From a bacterium (lineage in GTDB: Bacteria > UBP15 > UBA6099 > JAJRTR01), in contig JAJRTR010000198.1 in the NCBI GenBank assembly GCA_024278215.1, positions 1 through 23,577 of the forward strand: 23,577 bases of DNA. Direction: 5' to 3'. Both the position numbers and the translations under genes were made by a program. Below, one piece after another: positions 7,180 to 23,216 of the stretch (the first letter of the stretch is position 1; each line of letters begins with the position of its first letter). The notes under the pieces are model-generated. The model ran no database searches, was not told the origin of the DNA, and saw only the letters and a program-made list of their open reading frames with translations.

Positions 7180-7365
7180 TTATTCGGCTTTCTTTTTCTT
7201 GCTGTCTCCAACTGGCTTCACAGGTGGAAACATCTTTTCCATGAATGTTCGGCAAATATAGGCATTTCCATTTAAGTCGGTTTCATAGCTCTGTTCTCTT
7301 ATGGAACCATCACGTCTTCCTTCACGTGAATCTCTTATCTCTTTAGGTGCACCGACTTTTCTCAT
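7180..7365 (-). CDS. Small unrecognised ORF (61 aa)
   Basis: A minus-strand frame begins at ATG 7365 (MRKVGAPKEIRD) and ends with the very basic tail GDSKKKKAE at 7180. It is hydrophilic, with no membrane span or signal peptide and no family that I can name. The frame is open upstream to a GTG at 7482, but that extension is cysteine-rich and would run through the 18-bp direct repeat, so I prefer the inner ATG. It is isolated in an AT-rich, gene-poor stretch between a tRNA and a radical SAM gene, and could be a remnant of a mobile element or a chance ORF. No strong ribosome-binding site is visible. Confidence 0.3.
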   Translation of the reverse strand: MRKVGAPKEIRDSREGRRDGSIREQSYETDLNGNAYICRTFMEKMFPPVKPVGDSKKKKAE

Positions 7366-7786: not shown

Positions 7787-9202
7787 CTAACTGAAAACCT
7801 TAAGGAACTTCCGAAAAATATATTTTAAGTGTTGAAAAGAACGGATATAAAAAAACACACTCATCAACGCCCCGGGACGACAGTAAACAATGAAGTAACC
7901 AAGAAACCTCGCTATCCGCAGGAAGCTGGACGAAACACCTTTCGGCAGATAAACAAGCTTGTGCAAGGCAACTTTATCATAATCAAGTGACGCGAGTTGG
8001 CCGTTCTTTTTCATTTCATCATAGAAAGCGCTTCCGGGTAACGGCAGAAAGAAAACAAACTGTGCACGGTCGAGTTTCAGTTTCCCGGCGAATGAAATCG
8101 TTTTCAGGATATCCGGCTTCTCTTCGCCCGGAAATCCCATAACGAAAAAGCCCGTGATCTTCATCTTTGTGTTGTCACGCACAATCCGGACTTTTTCCTT
8201 AACCATATCCACAGTCTGGTTCTTCATGACAGCATTCAATATACGTTGAGAACCGGATTCTATACCCATGGATATCGCATAGCACCCTGCCCTCTCCAGC
8301 GCCGTAATAATTTCTTTGTCTATCGTGTTTATCTTTATGCCGTTAGGCAACGCAATATTTACCGCCGGGTTGCTTGCTGCTATGGACTCGCAGAATTCGA
8401 GTACCCACTCGCGATTCCCGGTGAAACAATCCGACACTATATGTATTTCACGGATATTATATTCCGAGCGCAACATTGAGATCTCATCGACAACGCTATC
8501 GACACTGCGGTAGCGCAGGCTGCGTCCGGTGATGGTATGCGCGGCGCAGAATTTACACGAATACGGGCAACCGCGCACCGGGCAGACAGGCGCCACAGGA
8601 TACGATTTGATAAAAGCGCCCATCGGCGCGGTGTCGTAATCAAGCGGATGAATCAGGTCCCACGCAGGAACAGCCACATGATCGAGATCGCTTATTACTT
8701 TCAGTTTATTAACGACAATCTTTTCTCCATCTCTCCATATCAGGTTGGGAATTTTCGAAAAATCCGGATTATCCCGTAGAGAATAATCGGCGCTCCTGAG
8801 TCTGTTTATCAAGGCGGGAAACGACTCTTCACCTTCTCCTCGCACAGCAAAATCAAGTTCGGGTATCATTGCCGGCATATTCGCGGGATCACCGGACGGG
8901 TGTGGTCCGCCGACAACTGTTTTTACATCCGGAGATATCTTCTTCACAAATCTGAGCAACTCGATTGTCTTTGTAAGAGCCCTAGAATAAACCTGAAAAG
9001 CGACAACATTGAAACCACCGGCTGCTATCCGCCTCTCGATATCTGTATAGTTCATTCCCGATTTATTGCCGTCACACAAATCGACCCCGATATCCTCCGC
9101 TCGAAGCGCAGCCGCAAGATAGCCAAGTCCGAGATTGGGAATAATAATATCAACATTATCATGTGTTGTTACCGGGTTGATGAGCAGAACTTCACAATTC
9201 AA
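7787..9202 (-). CDS. B12-binding-domain radical SAM protein (BchE-like class)
   Basis: The 471-residue protein has the two-part layout of cobalamin-type radical SAM enzymes: an N-terminal Rossmann-like domain (about 1-140, with IPNLGLGYLAAALR and VVGGPHPSGDP) and a radical SAM core with CxxxCxxC at C212, C216 and C219 (RGCPYSCKFC), followed by GIESGSQRIL and GFPGEEKPD. These enzymes methylate or rearrange unactivated carbon in lipids, pigments and natural products; the substrate here is unknown. The usual cobalamin-ligand motif DxHxxG is not evident. The C-terminal ~50 residues are hydrophobic and aromatic, suggesting membrane contact. The start is TTG at 9202, supported by GAGGTGG just upstream; no good ATG lies nearby. 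The stop is TAG. It follows the phosphodiesterase gene by 181 bases on the same strand. Confidence 0.9.
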   Translation of the reverse strand: MNCEVLLINPVTTHDNVDIIIPNLGLGYLAAALRAEDIGVDLCDGNKSGMNYTDIERRIAAGGFNVVAFQVYSRALTKTIELLRFVKKISPDVKTVVGGPHPSGDPANMPAMIPELDFAVRGEGEESFPALINRLRSADYSLRDNPDFSKIPNLIWRDGEKIVVNKLKVISDLDHVAVPAWDLIHPLDYDTAPMGAFIKSYPVAPVCPVRGCPYSCKFCAAHTITGRSLRYRSVDSVVDEISMLRSEYNIREIHIVSDCFTGNREWVLEFCESIAASNPAVNIALPNGIKINTIDKEIITALERAGCYAISMGIESGSQRILNAVMKNQTVDMVKEKVRIVRDNTKMKITGFFVMGFPGEEKPDILKTISFAGKLKLDRAQFVFFLPLPGSAFYDEMKKNGQLASLDYDKVALHKLVYLPKGVSSSFLRIARFLGYFIVYCRPGALMSVFFYIRSFQHLKYIFRKFLKVFS

Positions 9203-9383: not shown

Positions 9384-10085
9384 CTATTCGATTCCCAATT
9401 CCGCTTTTATGCCCTGAAGCCTGTCGGGATAGTCGGTCATTATGCAGTCGACATCCAGAAGGATCATTCTCCTGATGTCCTCTTTCTCGTTGACAGCCCA
9501 CACGTTAACATTCAAGCCGAGTTCGTGAGCTGCAACCACATATTTACGTGTGGTGGTCTTATAAAGAGGATTCACTGAAACGCAACCGAGTCCGGCGGCA
9601 AGCCTGAGTTGACGCCACTTCAACACCGGAACAGCGAGATAGCCGAGCGGCACATCCGGATCGATTTCACGCATTGTTTTAAGCACTCCGAATTTGAAAC
9701 ACGATACCTGGCAGCGATCATACAATTTATTTTTTCTGATAACTTCGACTACTTTTTCGACTGCATCACTGTCTTTGATTTCTATATTTATCGTCATGCC
9801 GGTTCCGACGCATGTATCTACAGTTTCCTGAAGTGTGGGTATCGGTTCGTCCCTGAAACGCAATCGTCGAATCTGATCGAGCGACAGTTTTTTTATATGA
9901 AACGCACCGGAATCAGTCTGTAATTTCGCGTTATGTGATATTACAGGCACAGCGTCAGCTGAGAGGAAGACGTCTGTTTCGATTTCCTGCGCGCCCATCT
10001 CCGCCGCACGCACAAATGCCCGGACTGTGTTTTCCGGTTCGTGAGCCCTTGCGCCTCGATGCGCGCAGTTAATAATTTTCTTCAT
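9384..10085 (-). CDS. Glycerophosphodiester phosphodiesterase family protein
   Basis: The family (UgpQ/GlpQ, TIM-barrel) hydrolyses glycerophosphodiesters, giving sn-glycerol 3-phosphate and an alcohol, in phospholipid turnover. From ATG 10085 the protein is 233 residues, close to UgpQ. The N-terminal signature is present: CAHRGARAHEPENT with catalytic His9-Arg10 and the Glu17-Asn19 pair, then EIETDVF with metal ligands Glu36/Asp38 and His51. The usual HD is HN here, and the preceding T-DG turn is replaced by SADAVPVIS, mild departures in the active-site loop. Later motifs are INIEIKD, VNVWAVNEKEDIRRM and CIMTDYPDRL. There is no signal peptide, so a cytosolic enzyme is expected. The frame is open to 10169, but the extra 28 residues do not belong to the family. 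The stop is TAG. It probably sits in a minus-strand unit with the secretin upstream. Confidence 0.92.
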   Translation of the reverse strand: MKKIINCAHRGARAHEPENTVRAFVRAAEMGAQEIETDVFLSADAVPVISHNAKLQTDSGAFHIKKLSLDQIRRLRFRDEPIPTLQETVDTCVGTGMTINIEIKDSDAVEKVVEVIRKNKLYDRCQVSCFKFGVLKTMREIDPDVPLGYLAVPVLKWRQLRLAAGLGCVSVNPLYKTTTRKYVVAAHELGLNVNVWAVNEKEDIRRMILLDVDCIMTDYPDRLQGIKAELGIE

Positions 10086-18638: not shown

Positions 18639-18668
18639 TTTACACATAACTGGTGGTAGTTATATAAT
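18639..18668 (+). promoter_or_regulatory. Strong sigma70-type promoter for the triple-lipase gene
   Basis: TTTACA (18639-18644, five of six consensus bases) and a perfect TATAAT (18663-18668) are separated by 18 bases. Transcription would start near 18675, about 40 bases before the ATG at 18714, leaving room for the GGGGTGG ribosome-binding site at 18704-18710. This makes the lipase gene its own unit, separate from the bamA-lpxD operon, and rejects the GTG at 18681 as start. Confidence 0.75.
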
Positions 18669-18713: not shown

Positions 18714-19028
18714 ATGAGAAGATCGTTATTCAGAAACCTTGCGTTATTTGTGATTACTCTATTTTCGGCAACTTTGTTTTTTGCCGTTTCGTGCCGCTCG
18801 GCGGGAATCCTCGAAAAAGAAAGCGGGAAGGACCCGATAGTGCTCGTGCATGGCTATTGCGGTTCTGTGCTTGGCGGACTTTCTGTCGAGGGCTACTGGT
18901 TATTCGTCGGCAACCGTTTCAAGCTGGATGGTTATGATATACACAAGATCGTGCTGGGCAACGGCGCTCTCCAGGACATCCGCACGAGTGCCGAAGAACT
19001 GAAAAATTATGTTAATAATGTCAGGTAG
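18714..19028 (+). CDS. N-terminal part of triple-lipase lipoprotein, ending at an in-frame TAG
   Basis: This 104-residue frame starts at ATG 18714 after GGGGTGG. It has a lipoprotein signal: basic MRRSLFR, a hydrophobic stretch, then FFAVSC with Cys27 as the predicted lipidated residue. The first strand and oxyanion-hole motif of a lipase follow (DPIVLVHGYCG, residues 40-50), plus the region up to NYVNNVR. It then stops at TAG (19026-19028) just where the second and third modules of the same gene continue with LSSTG and LAETG. The frame resumes without shift as STGKNKVDIVAHSEGG. On its own this piece lacks the nucleophile, acid and histidine and cannot be an enzyme. It is the front end of the gene at 19029-23216, separated by a nonsense codon, a read-through site or a sequence error. 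Confidence 0.75.
   Translation: MRRSLFRNLALFVITLFSATLFFAVSCRSAGILEKESGKDPIVLVHGYCGSVLGGLSVEGYWLFVGNRFKLDGYDIHKIVLGNGALQDIRTSAEELKNYVNNVR
19026..19028 (+). other. In-frame amber codon splitting the lipase gene
   Basis: The codons run GTC AGG TAG TCA ACC GGA, with homologous coding sequence in the same frame on both sides. In modules 2 and 3 the aligned codons are AGC (Ser) and GCG (Ala). One base change from TCG (Ser) would create TAG. Two other genes in the window, the radical SAM gene at 7787 and the phosphodiesterase gene at 9384, end with TAG, so general recoding of amber is not suggested. Confidence 0.9.
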
Positions 19029-19046
19029 TCAACCGGAAAAAACAAA

Positions 19047-22000
19047 GTGGACATCGTCGCCCACAGTGAAGGCGGGCTTGTCGCGAAATATTACATTCTA
19101 TACCTTGGCGGCGCGTCTTATGTCGACGACCTCGTCACGATATCCACACCGCATCGCGGCACAACCAGCGCGAGCATCGGACCCGGCAAAGCGTCTCGAC
19201 AGATGGAAGTCTACAGCGATTTTATCCGGCAGCTTAATTCGGACTGGAATTTCCCCGGCAATGTCGATTACACCGCGATACACAGCAACCAGGATGAAAT
19301 CGTTTTTCCGACACCCAACGGCTTCTTCGCAGGCGCAATAAACATGAATGTAAACATGCTCGGCCACGCCGGCATTCTGGCAAACGAAAAAGTTTACCAG
19401 ATGGTTAAGGGCGCTGTTTCGACGGATATCAAAAACAACCACAGGGCGCTGCCCATCGAGATCGTCAAAGACCGCATGACTACGAATAATCCCAACGTCA
19501 CTTTGAAACTTAATAAAACCGATCATCTCCACACCGGCACCAATATGGAAGATATGATGATCGACGACCAGCCATTTCTGCACGGCGACAATTATGAATC
19601 GTTCGCATCGACAAAATCCTGGCGGCTCGATACTACCCATGATGGGCTGAAAGCTGTTTATGTGCGGTATAGAAAAAAAGGCGGCTTCCTGCAAATGGAC
19701 AAAAAATCGCCAGTTTATGTCGATTACATTTTCTACGACAGTACCGCACCCGGTTGCAGTCTGAACATTGTTCCCGAAGTCACCCTCGACACTACTGTTT
19801 CGCTGGCGATCGACGCCGCCGACAACAGCGACAATTACAAAAAGTTCAAAATATGGAACGCACTGACCGCTTATGGGATCGACGACCTGGGCGTAAAGGA
19901 AATGAAAATCAGTACAGACCCGAACTTCAGCGGCACCGCCTGGCAGCCGTACTCAGGGAGCGCAAGTATTGACCTCGGACCCGGTTCCGGCGAAAAAACA
20001 GTATATCTGAAGGTCCGCGACGGCGCGGGAAACGAAAGCACCGCAGTGAGCGACACGGTCCGCGTTGTCGATCCCGCCGCGGGTGATATCGGAATGATTT
20101 CCGAAGGCGACAGCGACCCGGTAGTGCTCGTGCACGGCTACGGCGGCTCTATCGTCGGCGAGGTCAGCTCCTACATCAACTGGGTATATATCTATGAAAA
20201 ACTGCGCAGTGAAGGTTTCGACGTCCACCGGATAACACTCAGCGGGGGCGGTCTCCAGGACGTTGTAAAAAGCGCGGACGAACTGAACTCATTTGTCGCG
20301 GATGTACTGAGCAGCACGGGGAAGCCAAAAGTGGACATCGTATGCCACAGCGAAGGCGGACTGGTGGCGCGTTATTATATCCAGAAGCTCGGCGGCGCCG
20401 CCTATGTGGACGATCTGGTGACGATCAGCACCCCGCATCGCGGCACTACCGTCGCGAGCATCGGCCCCGGCAAAGCGTCTCGACAGATGGAAGTCGCAAG
20501 CCCGTTCCTCCAGGACCTCAACTCGGGCGACACTCTGCCCGGCGACGTGTCATATACCGCTCTTTTCAGTCATGCCGACGAGATAGTGGTGCCGGGCAAA
20601 AACGGTTTCTTCGACGGCGCTGTCAATATAAATTACACGATGTTCGACCATGCGGGAATCCTTTTCCATATCGATCCCTACACGGTTGTTCGCAATTCGC
20701 TCTCGAACCGCTACATCTTCGACAAATCGCAGAGGCCGGTGGAAATTGTCGCCCCGGGCATGTCCACTTCGGCGAATACTTTACAGGTTAAACTCAAGGC
20801 CTGCAATCATTACGCTCCGCAAACACCGGTCATTGAAATGATGGTTGCGACAAACGGACTTTTCAAAGGCGCGTCGTGGCAGCCGTTCGCCCCGGAGGTG
20901 ACACTCGATGTCTCCGGCAGGGGAAACGGACTGCTGGGCGTACATGTAAAATACAGGGGCGCGGACGGAAAGCAGTCACCCTCTTATGCTGATTACATCA
21001 TGATCGACAGGTCCGCGCCGTCAGCATCCGTCGAAGTCGCAGAGGCCGACATCGACAATTCGACCCTGCATATCAAGATCAATGTTTCAGACAATACAGA
21101 CAAGTATTCCGGAATAAATCCGAAGAATATTTTCGAGTCATACGGCATAACCGGCATAGGCGCTAAGGAGATGATGGTTGGCAAAGGTGAGGATTTCGCC
21201 GGCGCGTCGTGGCAGCCGATAAGCAACTCGATAGAAGTTGCAGTCGATCCCGGATTCGGGATGAGAACGGTTTATCTCAAATTCCGCGACGGAGCGGGCA
21301 ACGAAACCCCTGCCCTCTCCGCTTCGGCGTATATGTTCAACAAAGTCAACGGCTACATGGCGATGGAAGAAGACAACGACCCGGTGGTGCTCGTGCATGG
21401 CTACGGGAGTTCGATTATGGGCGATGTCAGCTCATACATAAGCTGGGCGTATTATGTGGGACGTCTCGAAGCCGACGGTTTCGATACTCATGTGATAACC
21501 CTCAGCGACGCGGGGATGCAGGACATAACTATCAGCGCGGCGGAACTTCAATCGTTCGTACAGAAGGTGCTGGCGGAAACCGGCGCGCGAAAAGTCGATA
21601 TAGTCAGCCACAGCATGGGCGGGCTGGTGTCGAGATATTACATTAAATATATGGGCGGCTCCGGGCTTGTCGACGACCTCGTCACAATTTCCACTCCGCA
21701 CAGAGGCACTATCACTGCGTCCATAGGACCCGGCAAATCCGCACGGCAGATGGAAGTGGGCAGCAGCTTCCTGCGCACTCTCAACTCGGGCGACATAACG
21801 CCCGGCTATGTCGATTACACCGCTATTCACTCCAACAACGACGAGATGGTTATCCCACAGCAAAACGGCTTCCTCGACGGGGCGATAAATATCAATATGA
21901 ACAACTATGAACATGCGACAATTCTTTTCAACGATGAAACATACCAGGCCGTAAAAGCCGCGTTCAAACTCGATGTGGGACACGCGCCGGAAGAACTGCC

Positions 22001-23216
22001 CGTGCATATAAACGCGGATACGATGGTCACGGATTCGCCTCATGTCACTCTCACACTTAACTACTACAACCACTATGCGCCTCAGTATCCGCCGGGTGAA
22101 ATGAAAATTTCAAACAACAAGTTTCTCACCGGTGCCCAATGGCAGCCTTTCTCCAACAGCGTATCATGGCAACTCAACACTTTGAACGATGGGCTAAAGG
22201 CTGTTTACGTTAAATACCGCGCCGCCGAATCAGGCACGGAATCACCCGTTTATGTAGATTATATTGTGCTCGACCGCACACCGCCCGAAGGCAGCGTATC
22301 CGCCGCCCTCTCGCAGGACGACCCGAACACGGCGGACCTCACCATCACCGCTTACGACAACTCCGACACCTACGGACGCCTGAACCCGACAAAGCTGATG
22401 CAGTCGTACGGTATCAGCGATATCGGCATGAAGTCGATGATGCTGTGGAACACACCTGATTTTTCGGGCGCTCTCTGGGAGGATGTCACAAGTACACGCA
22501 AGTGGCCGCTTATCGAAGCTGATTCCGACAGAACGGTTTATGTTAAGTTTATTGATAACGCCGGTAACGAAAGCGCAACTCTGAATGTGCCTGTGAAATG
22601 GGACGGAACATATTCGGACGACGACACAAACGAAGAAAACGTCGAAGACAAAACACAACCCGGCGATGTTGTTTCCGATGGAACTGGCGAAACCGGAAAA
22701 ACTCCCGTCAATGTCGTCAGCGAGATCGACTTCACCAGAGGATGGAATCTCTTCTATCTGCCCAACGGGCTCCCTGAAAATGTCTCGGAGATTATTACTA
22801 CCTTCATCCAGTCACTCAAGGATACTCTGGACTTCTCATTCACTTCCCGTTCCAGGAACAGTTCACGCCTGCATGTCGTCGAAAGAGGCCGGGCGATATG
22901 GGTACACACCGACGAGCCGCTATCCCGTAAATTCAGTTTCATGACATACGCGGGCGGCGGAAAGAAAAACTCTGTGGCGCTTGCTCCGGGCTGGAACGTC
23001 ATCGGCCTGTCAGGTCATGAATCCGCCGATATTTCAGACATAAATATTGTACTTGGCGCAGAAAAACTTTCGATCGCAGACGCGGCGGCACAGCGTCTCA
23101 TTTCCGGAGATATACTTACTTATGACAATGGCTCATACAAAGCTACTGAGACGCTCCTGCCTTTTACCGCCTACTTTATAAAAGCGATTGAACCATGTGT
23201 GATCGAACTTCCGTAA
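19047..23216 (+). CDS. Triple-lipase protein, main part (three lipase + Ig-like modules, C-terminal beta domain)
   Basis: Counting from 18714 through the amber codon the product is 1500 residues. Three homologous modules each hold an alpha/beta-hydrolase lipase followed by two Ig-like beta domains. Predicted triads are S118-D194-H218 (AHSEGG, DEIV, GHAGIL), S546-D622-H646 (CHSEGG) and S967-D1043-H1067 (SHSMGG); Ser-Asp and Asp-His spacing is 76 and 24 in all three. HGY oxyanion motifs lie near 46, 474 and 895. The AHSxGG/GHxGIL pattern resembles Bacillus-type (family I.4, lipase class 2) enzymes. Each Ig-like block ends with a KTVYLKxRDGAGNES-type strand. An acidic linker (about 1300-1333) leads to a C-terminal domain starting GWNLFYLPN and containing APGWNVIGL, a type seen in surface proteins. 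The GTG at 19047 has no good ribosome-binding site and no signal peptide, so restart there would leave a cytosolic, damaged first module. Substrate unknown; esters or lipids inferred. Confidence 0.88.
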   Translation: MDIVAHSEGGLVAKYYILYLGGASYVDDLVTISTPHRGTTSASIGPGKASRQMEVYSDFIRQLNSDWNFPGNVDYTAIHSNQDEIVFPTPNGFFAGAINMNVNMLGHAGILANEKVYQMVKGAVSTDIKNNHRALPIEIVKDRMTTNNPNVTLKLNKTDHLHTGTNMEDMMIDDQPFLHGDNYESFASTKSWRLDTTHDGLKAVYVRYRKKGGFLQMDKKSPVYVDYIFYDSTAPGCSLNIVPEVTLDTTVSLAIDAADNSDNYKKFKIWNALTAYGIDDLGVKEMKISTDPNFSGTAWQPYSGSASIDLGPGSGEKTVYLKVRDGAGNESTAVSDTVRVVDPAAGDIGMISEGDSDPVVLVHGYGGSIVGEVSSYINWVYIYEKLRSEGFDVHRITLSGGGLQDVVKSADELNSFVADVLSSTGKPKVDIVCHSEGGLVARYYIQKLGGAAYVDDLVTISTPHRGTTVASIGPGKASRQMEVASPFLQDLNSGDTLPGDVSYTALFSHADEIVVPGKNGFFDGAVNINYTMFDHAGILFHIDPYTVVRNSLSNRYIFDKSQRPVEIVAPGMSTSANTLQVKLKACNHYAPQTPVIEMMVATNGLFKGASWQPFAPEVTLDVSGRGNGLLGVHVKYRGADGKQSPSYADYIMIDRSAPSASVEVAEADIDNSTLHIKINVSDNTDKYSGINPKNIFESYGITGIGAKEMMVGKGEDFAGASWQPISNSIEVAVDPGFGMRTVYLKFRDGAGNETPALSASAYMFNKVNGYMAMEEDNDPVVLVHGYGSSIMGDVSSYISWAYYVGRLEADGFDTHVITLSDAGMQDITISAAELQSFVQKVLAETGARKVDIVSHSMGGLVSRYYIKYMGGSGLVDDLVTISTPHRGTITASIGPGKSARQMEVGSSFLRTLNSGDITPGYVDYTAIHSNNDEMVIPQQNGFLDGAININMNNYEHATILFNDETYQAVKAAFKLDVGHAPEELPVHINADTMVTDSPHVTLTLNYYNHYAPQYPPGEMKISNNKFLTGAQWQPFSNSVSWQLNTLNDGLKAVYVKYRAAESGTESPVYVDYIVLDRTPPEGSVSAALSQDDPNTADLTITAYDNSDTYGRLNPTKLMQSYGISDIGMKSMMLWNTPDFSGALWEDVTSTRKWPLIEADSDRTVYVKFIDNAGNESATLNVPVKWDGTYSDDDTNEENVEDKTQPGDVVSDGTGETGKTPVNVVSEIDFTRGWNLFYLPNGLPENVSEIITTFIQSLKDTLDFSFTSRSRNSSRLHVVERGRAIWVHTDEPLSRKFSFMTYAGGGKKNSVALAPGWNVIGLSGHESADISDINIVLGAEKLSIADAAAQRLISGDILTYDNGSYKATETLLPFTAYFIKAIEPCVIELP
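19170..20495. repeat. Near-identical 42-bp segments in lipase modules 1 and 2
   Basis: Bases 19170-19211 and 20454-20495 match at 41 of 42 positions (only A/C at the twelfth base), 1284 bases (428 codons) apart. The corresponding stretch in module 3 (about 21717-21758) is clearly more diverged. The segment encodes ASIGPGKASRQMEV. It marks modules 1 and 2 as the more recently related pair, or as partners in gene conversion. Confidence 0.85.

Follow-up and report, generated by a model that had tools for sequence, protein, structure and literature searches.

A lone in-frame TAG in a conserved, exported triple-lipase gene is probably a private and non-programmed nonsense substitution

The window analysed here is a complete contig of 23,577 bases (C176) belonging to a 4.55-Mb draft genome in 207 contigs (G000), with 95% completeness and 1.3% contamination, that is likely a metagenome-assembled genome. 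A run of housekeeping genes, read from their translations as encoding ProC, FtsK, BamA, a Skp/OmpH-like protein and LpxD, is located ahead of a large lipase gene on the forward strand. From its ATG at 18714 to its TAA at 23216 this gene forms one continuous frame of about 1,500 residues, broken once by a TAG at 19026–19028. The interruption had been pointed out in a first-pass annotation, and our analysis agrees with that description: the frame is already open ahead of the ATG and stays so up to the TAG, and is open again for 1,395 codons down to the TAA. The expression signals also appear intact, as had been proposed. A strong promoter-like site of the sigma-70 type (TTTACA-18-TATAAT, 11 of 12 positions by consensus match) is found at 18639–18668 on the same strand, and a GGGGTGG run resembling a ribosome-binding site precedes the ATG, which is aligned with the starts of the orthologues. 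The 104 codons before the stop (18714–19025) encode the signal sequence, the first beta strand and the oxyanion-loop HG of module 1. The part after it (19029–23216) encodes the remainder of module 1, then modules 2 and 3 with beta-rich linkers and, at the C-terminus, a GWNL domain. The first possible in-frame restart past the TAG is a GTG at 19047–19049, a candidate start from which the product would carry neither the signal sequence nor the HG loop of module 1.

The encoded protein is indeed a triple lipase, with three Lipase_2-type alpha/beta-hydrolase modules in one chain. The Lipase_2 profile (PF01674) matches three stretches with 114 bits, against a curated cut-off of 20.3, and module 3 matches structures of Bacillus subtilis lipase A. 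The modules are therefore akin to Lipase class 2 and to the LipA/EstA fold of B. subtilis, but here they occur in tandem with beta-rich linkers and the C-terminal GWNL domain. This layout of about 1,500 residues is conserved across the order, being kept in six genomes. Among named contigs, the closest found carry only much more distant lipases, from Niallia, Clostridium and a Patescibacteria MAG. All nine Ser/Asp/His catalytic residues are present by motif. The triad of module 1 is entirely 3' of the TAG, and the oxyanion-loop HG of the same module is 5' of it. The lipobox noted previously (AVSC) is present in this genome, but it is not a conserved feature, as the signal sequences of four of the five orthologues have no Cys at this place.

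The comparison with relatives that the first-pass annotation had proposed was carried out with six relatives belonging to the same order. The 5' half of the orthologue is available in five of them, and a contig end truncates the gene in the sixth. The five orthologues are 53–57% identical to the interrupted lipase, and their frames are uninterrupted end to end (1,489–1,557 codons). In the column of the TAG, four have an Ala codon and one a Ser codon. Since all five are open with a sense codon at this column, the stop is, by this alignment, private to the source genome. A sense codon in the relatives is what the first-pass annotation itself had associated with an error or a private mutation. 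The protein is homologous to these orthologues in the same frame on both sides of the TAG; no gap is needed from the first conserved strand up to the stop, and the mature part aligns without indel. The 65 mature residues upstream of the TAG are 51–66% identical, comparable to the 52–56% of the distal protein, which argues that no decay has accumulated. Among the close trio G001, G003 and G004 the dN/dS of the gene is 0.055–0.060, and as judged from these ratios it is under purifying selection and maintained in close relatives.

Other genes of the source genome are cut in the same way. We scanned 1.34 Mb of it for stops with same-frame coding sequence to either side and, in a second and separate scan, for stops inside homologous alignments; the gene queries were chosen by coding score, and tandem gene boundaries were removed by reading both sides. 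Five further clear single-stop genes were found, two with TAG and three with TAA, each with a homologous or coding frame continuing past the stop. An alpha/beta hydrolase gene carries a TAG at 8238–8240 of L116 (minus strand), and its orthologues in G005 and G006, 65–68% identical, are open. A ligase gene is cut by a TAG (L100, 4840–4842, minus strand) and an acyl-CoA ligase gene by a TAA (L107, 3363–3365, minus strand). A gene with a TAA at 7247–7249 of L081 (minus strand) has open orthologues in G001, G003, G004 and G006, and an aspartate-dehydrogenase-like gene with a TAA at 10037–10039 of L090 (plus strand) is open in five relatives. Thus the orthologues are uninterrupted for each of the three genes in which they were tested (L116, L081 and L090). 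A weaker case is a TAG at 14769 of L101 (plus strand). Candidates in L036, L038, L081 (plus strand, 3935), L087, L088, L106, L119, L123 and L129 were discarded as tandem genes or matches on the non-coding strand.

The same scans gave no convincing lone-stop gene in 0.77 Mb of G001 and G003. With the lipase included, there are six or seven cases in 1.34 Mb of the source genome versus none in 0.77 Mb of the relatives. The chance that all six or all seven fall in the source genome by its share of sequence is 0.07 or 0.04, respectively, so that the excess is no more than suggestive, and the sampled pieces are unequal. The sampled part of the source genome showed no interruption of the frameshift type. 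Consensus errors of the substitution type would be expected to leave this pattern more than natural decay would, although the power of the observation is low. The stops found (TAG three or four times, TAA three times, TGA never) fit random single substitutions, which predict 42/39/19% for these three codons. With only 19% expected for TGA, its absence from six cases has a probability of 0.27 and is not surprising. The residues found at the interrupted sites in relatives or paralogues are varied (Ala/Ser, Glu, Asp, Lys).

Lone stops in several unrelated genes are most simply explained by ordinary recent mutation or by base-calling or assembly error. For the TAG we therefore favour a private nonsense substitution that is not programmed, located in a conserved gene for an exported triple lipase and one of several scattered over this genome (probability of roughly 0.88). 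As to its origin, base errors in the consensus or bases from a minor strain have about an even chance, and are slightly favoured over a genuine recent loss-of-function mutation, which is a somewhat weaker but serious possibility. Two points go against this explanation. A clean frame on both sides would also fit a stop that is tolerated or read through, and the compared genomes are from the same order, so a TAG fixed in the species would be compatible with the alignment as well. In a genome truly carrying the TAG, RF1 would recognise it as a normal terminator and translation would yield a 104-residue fragment consisting of the signal sequence followed by the first part of module 1. As the TAG separates this signal sequence and the HG of module 1 from every catalytic triad, the secreted enzyme would be lost, leaving at best a leaderless product restarting at GTG 19047. 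The case is like the private nonsense mutations and consensus errors of draft and metagenome-assembled genomes, with a lone in-frame stop in an otherwise intact gene, a sense codon in every relative, no suppressor tRNA and several such genes in one assembly. Nothing sets the lipase apart from them, except that the interrupted protein is unusually long. False calls of recoding are known to arise from in-frame stops of pseudogenes where suppressor tRNA genes are lacking, as described in a published screen (PMC8629427). No matches came from our search of the literature for nonsense errors in metagenome-assembled genomes. The locus calls for caution, as a striking lone stop in an intact gene turned out to be one of several in the genome and is missing from all relatives checked.

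Four origins had been put forward for the TAG in the first-pass annotation. An error or a private mutation, two of these, are favoured by the sense codon in all five orthologues; read-through and an on/off switch fared less well. By read-through, some ribosomes would decode the TAG with a near-cognate tRNA and produce a little full-length exported lipase. The intact frame, promoter and ribosome-binding site would allow this, and E. coli passes premature stops at some positions (PMC11126739). The lipase resembles the E. coli UAG reporters in having a stop in frame with a downstream coding extension, but its stop is kept by no relative, the other genes of the genome are cut likewise, and its context is unfavourable. 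The TAG is followed directly by a T, and in E. coli read-through was reduced when the sequence downstream was T-rich (PMC11126739). No stable or unusual RNA fold was found downstream (z = 0.55). The suppressor-tRNA search that had been suggested gave no CTA (or TTA) anticodon among 46 tRNAs (Rfam model and ARAGORN). This absence is strong evidence but not absolute, because tRNA-Asn was not detected either, probably owing to an assembly gap, and the set is thus incomplete. Read-through is very unlikely on these grounds, and its programmed form is, like recoding, unsupported and disfavoured.

Less credible is a split gene, in which translation would stop at the TAG and restart at GTG 19047 to give a deliberate leaderless, cytoplasmic double lipase. 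The GTG lies 18 bases past the stop and is preceded by a weak purine run (CCGGAA), but it is an ordinary conserved Val codon (KVDIV), the restart would separate the HG loop of module 1 from the catalytic Ser of that module, and every orthologue is one exported chain. General low-level suppression by a near-cognate tRNA, whereby the lineage would tolerate lone UAA and UAG codons and several genes, the lipase included, would be partly read through, is given still less credence. If true, such UAR suppression would mean that a free-living bacterium tolerates some deviation from strict termination. Exported hydrolases are a class possibly under variable selection, and the lipase is one of them, which could suit a strain-variable on/off switch of a surface enzyme. 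This phase variation is nevertheless highly improbable, since a point substitution does not provide a reversible switch, and no short repeat tract, frameshift or invertible element is present around the site.

Reassignment of TAG in the lineage, or its use for pyrrolysine, can practically be dismissed: TAG accounts for three of the six clear interruptions, but those by TAA are equally frequent, the residues at the sites differ, RF1 and RF2 are both present and intact (RF1 with 473.6 bits), no CTA tRNA was found, and no pyrrolysyl-tRNA synthetase was detected, the best match to the PylS model reaching 38.9 bits versus a cut-off of 178, with sub-threshold matches also given by most control genomes. 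The terminal stops of the sample (986 called genes in 1.34 Mb) are TGA 477, TAA 274 and TAG 198, so that about a fifth of the genes (198 of 949) end in TAG, which is a working stop codon in this genome. Genome-wide recoding had already been thought unlikely given two neighbouring genes that terminate with TAG, at 7787 and 9384 on the minus strand, and both the stops and the conclusion are upheld here.

The last approximately 165 residues of the lipase (22700–23213 of the window) form a GWNL...GWN domain with no Pfam match. It recurs at the C-terminal ends of other large proteins that look exported, both in this genome and in the order, with instances at 7252–7758 of L118 and at 18778–19227 of L119 (minus strand), and is a candidate surface-sorting or anchoring domain.
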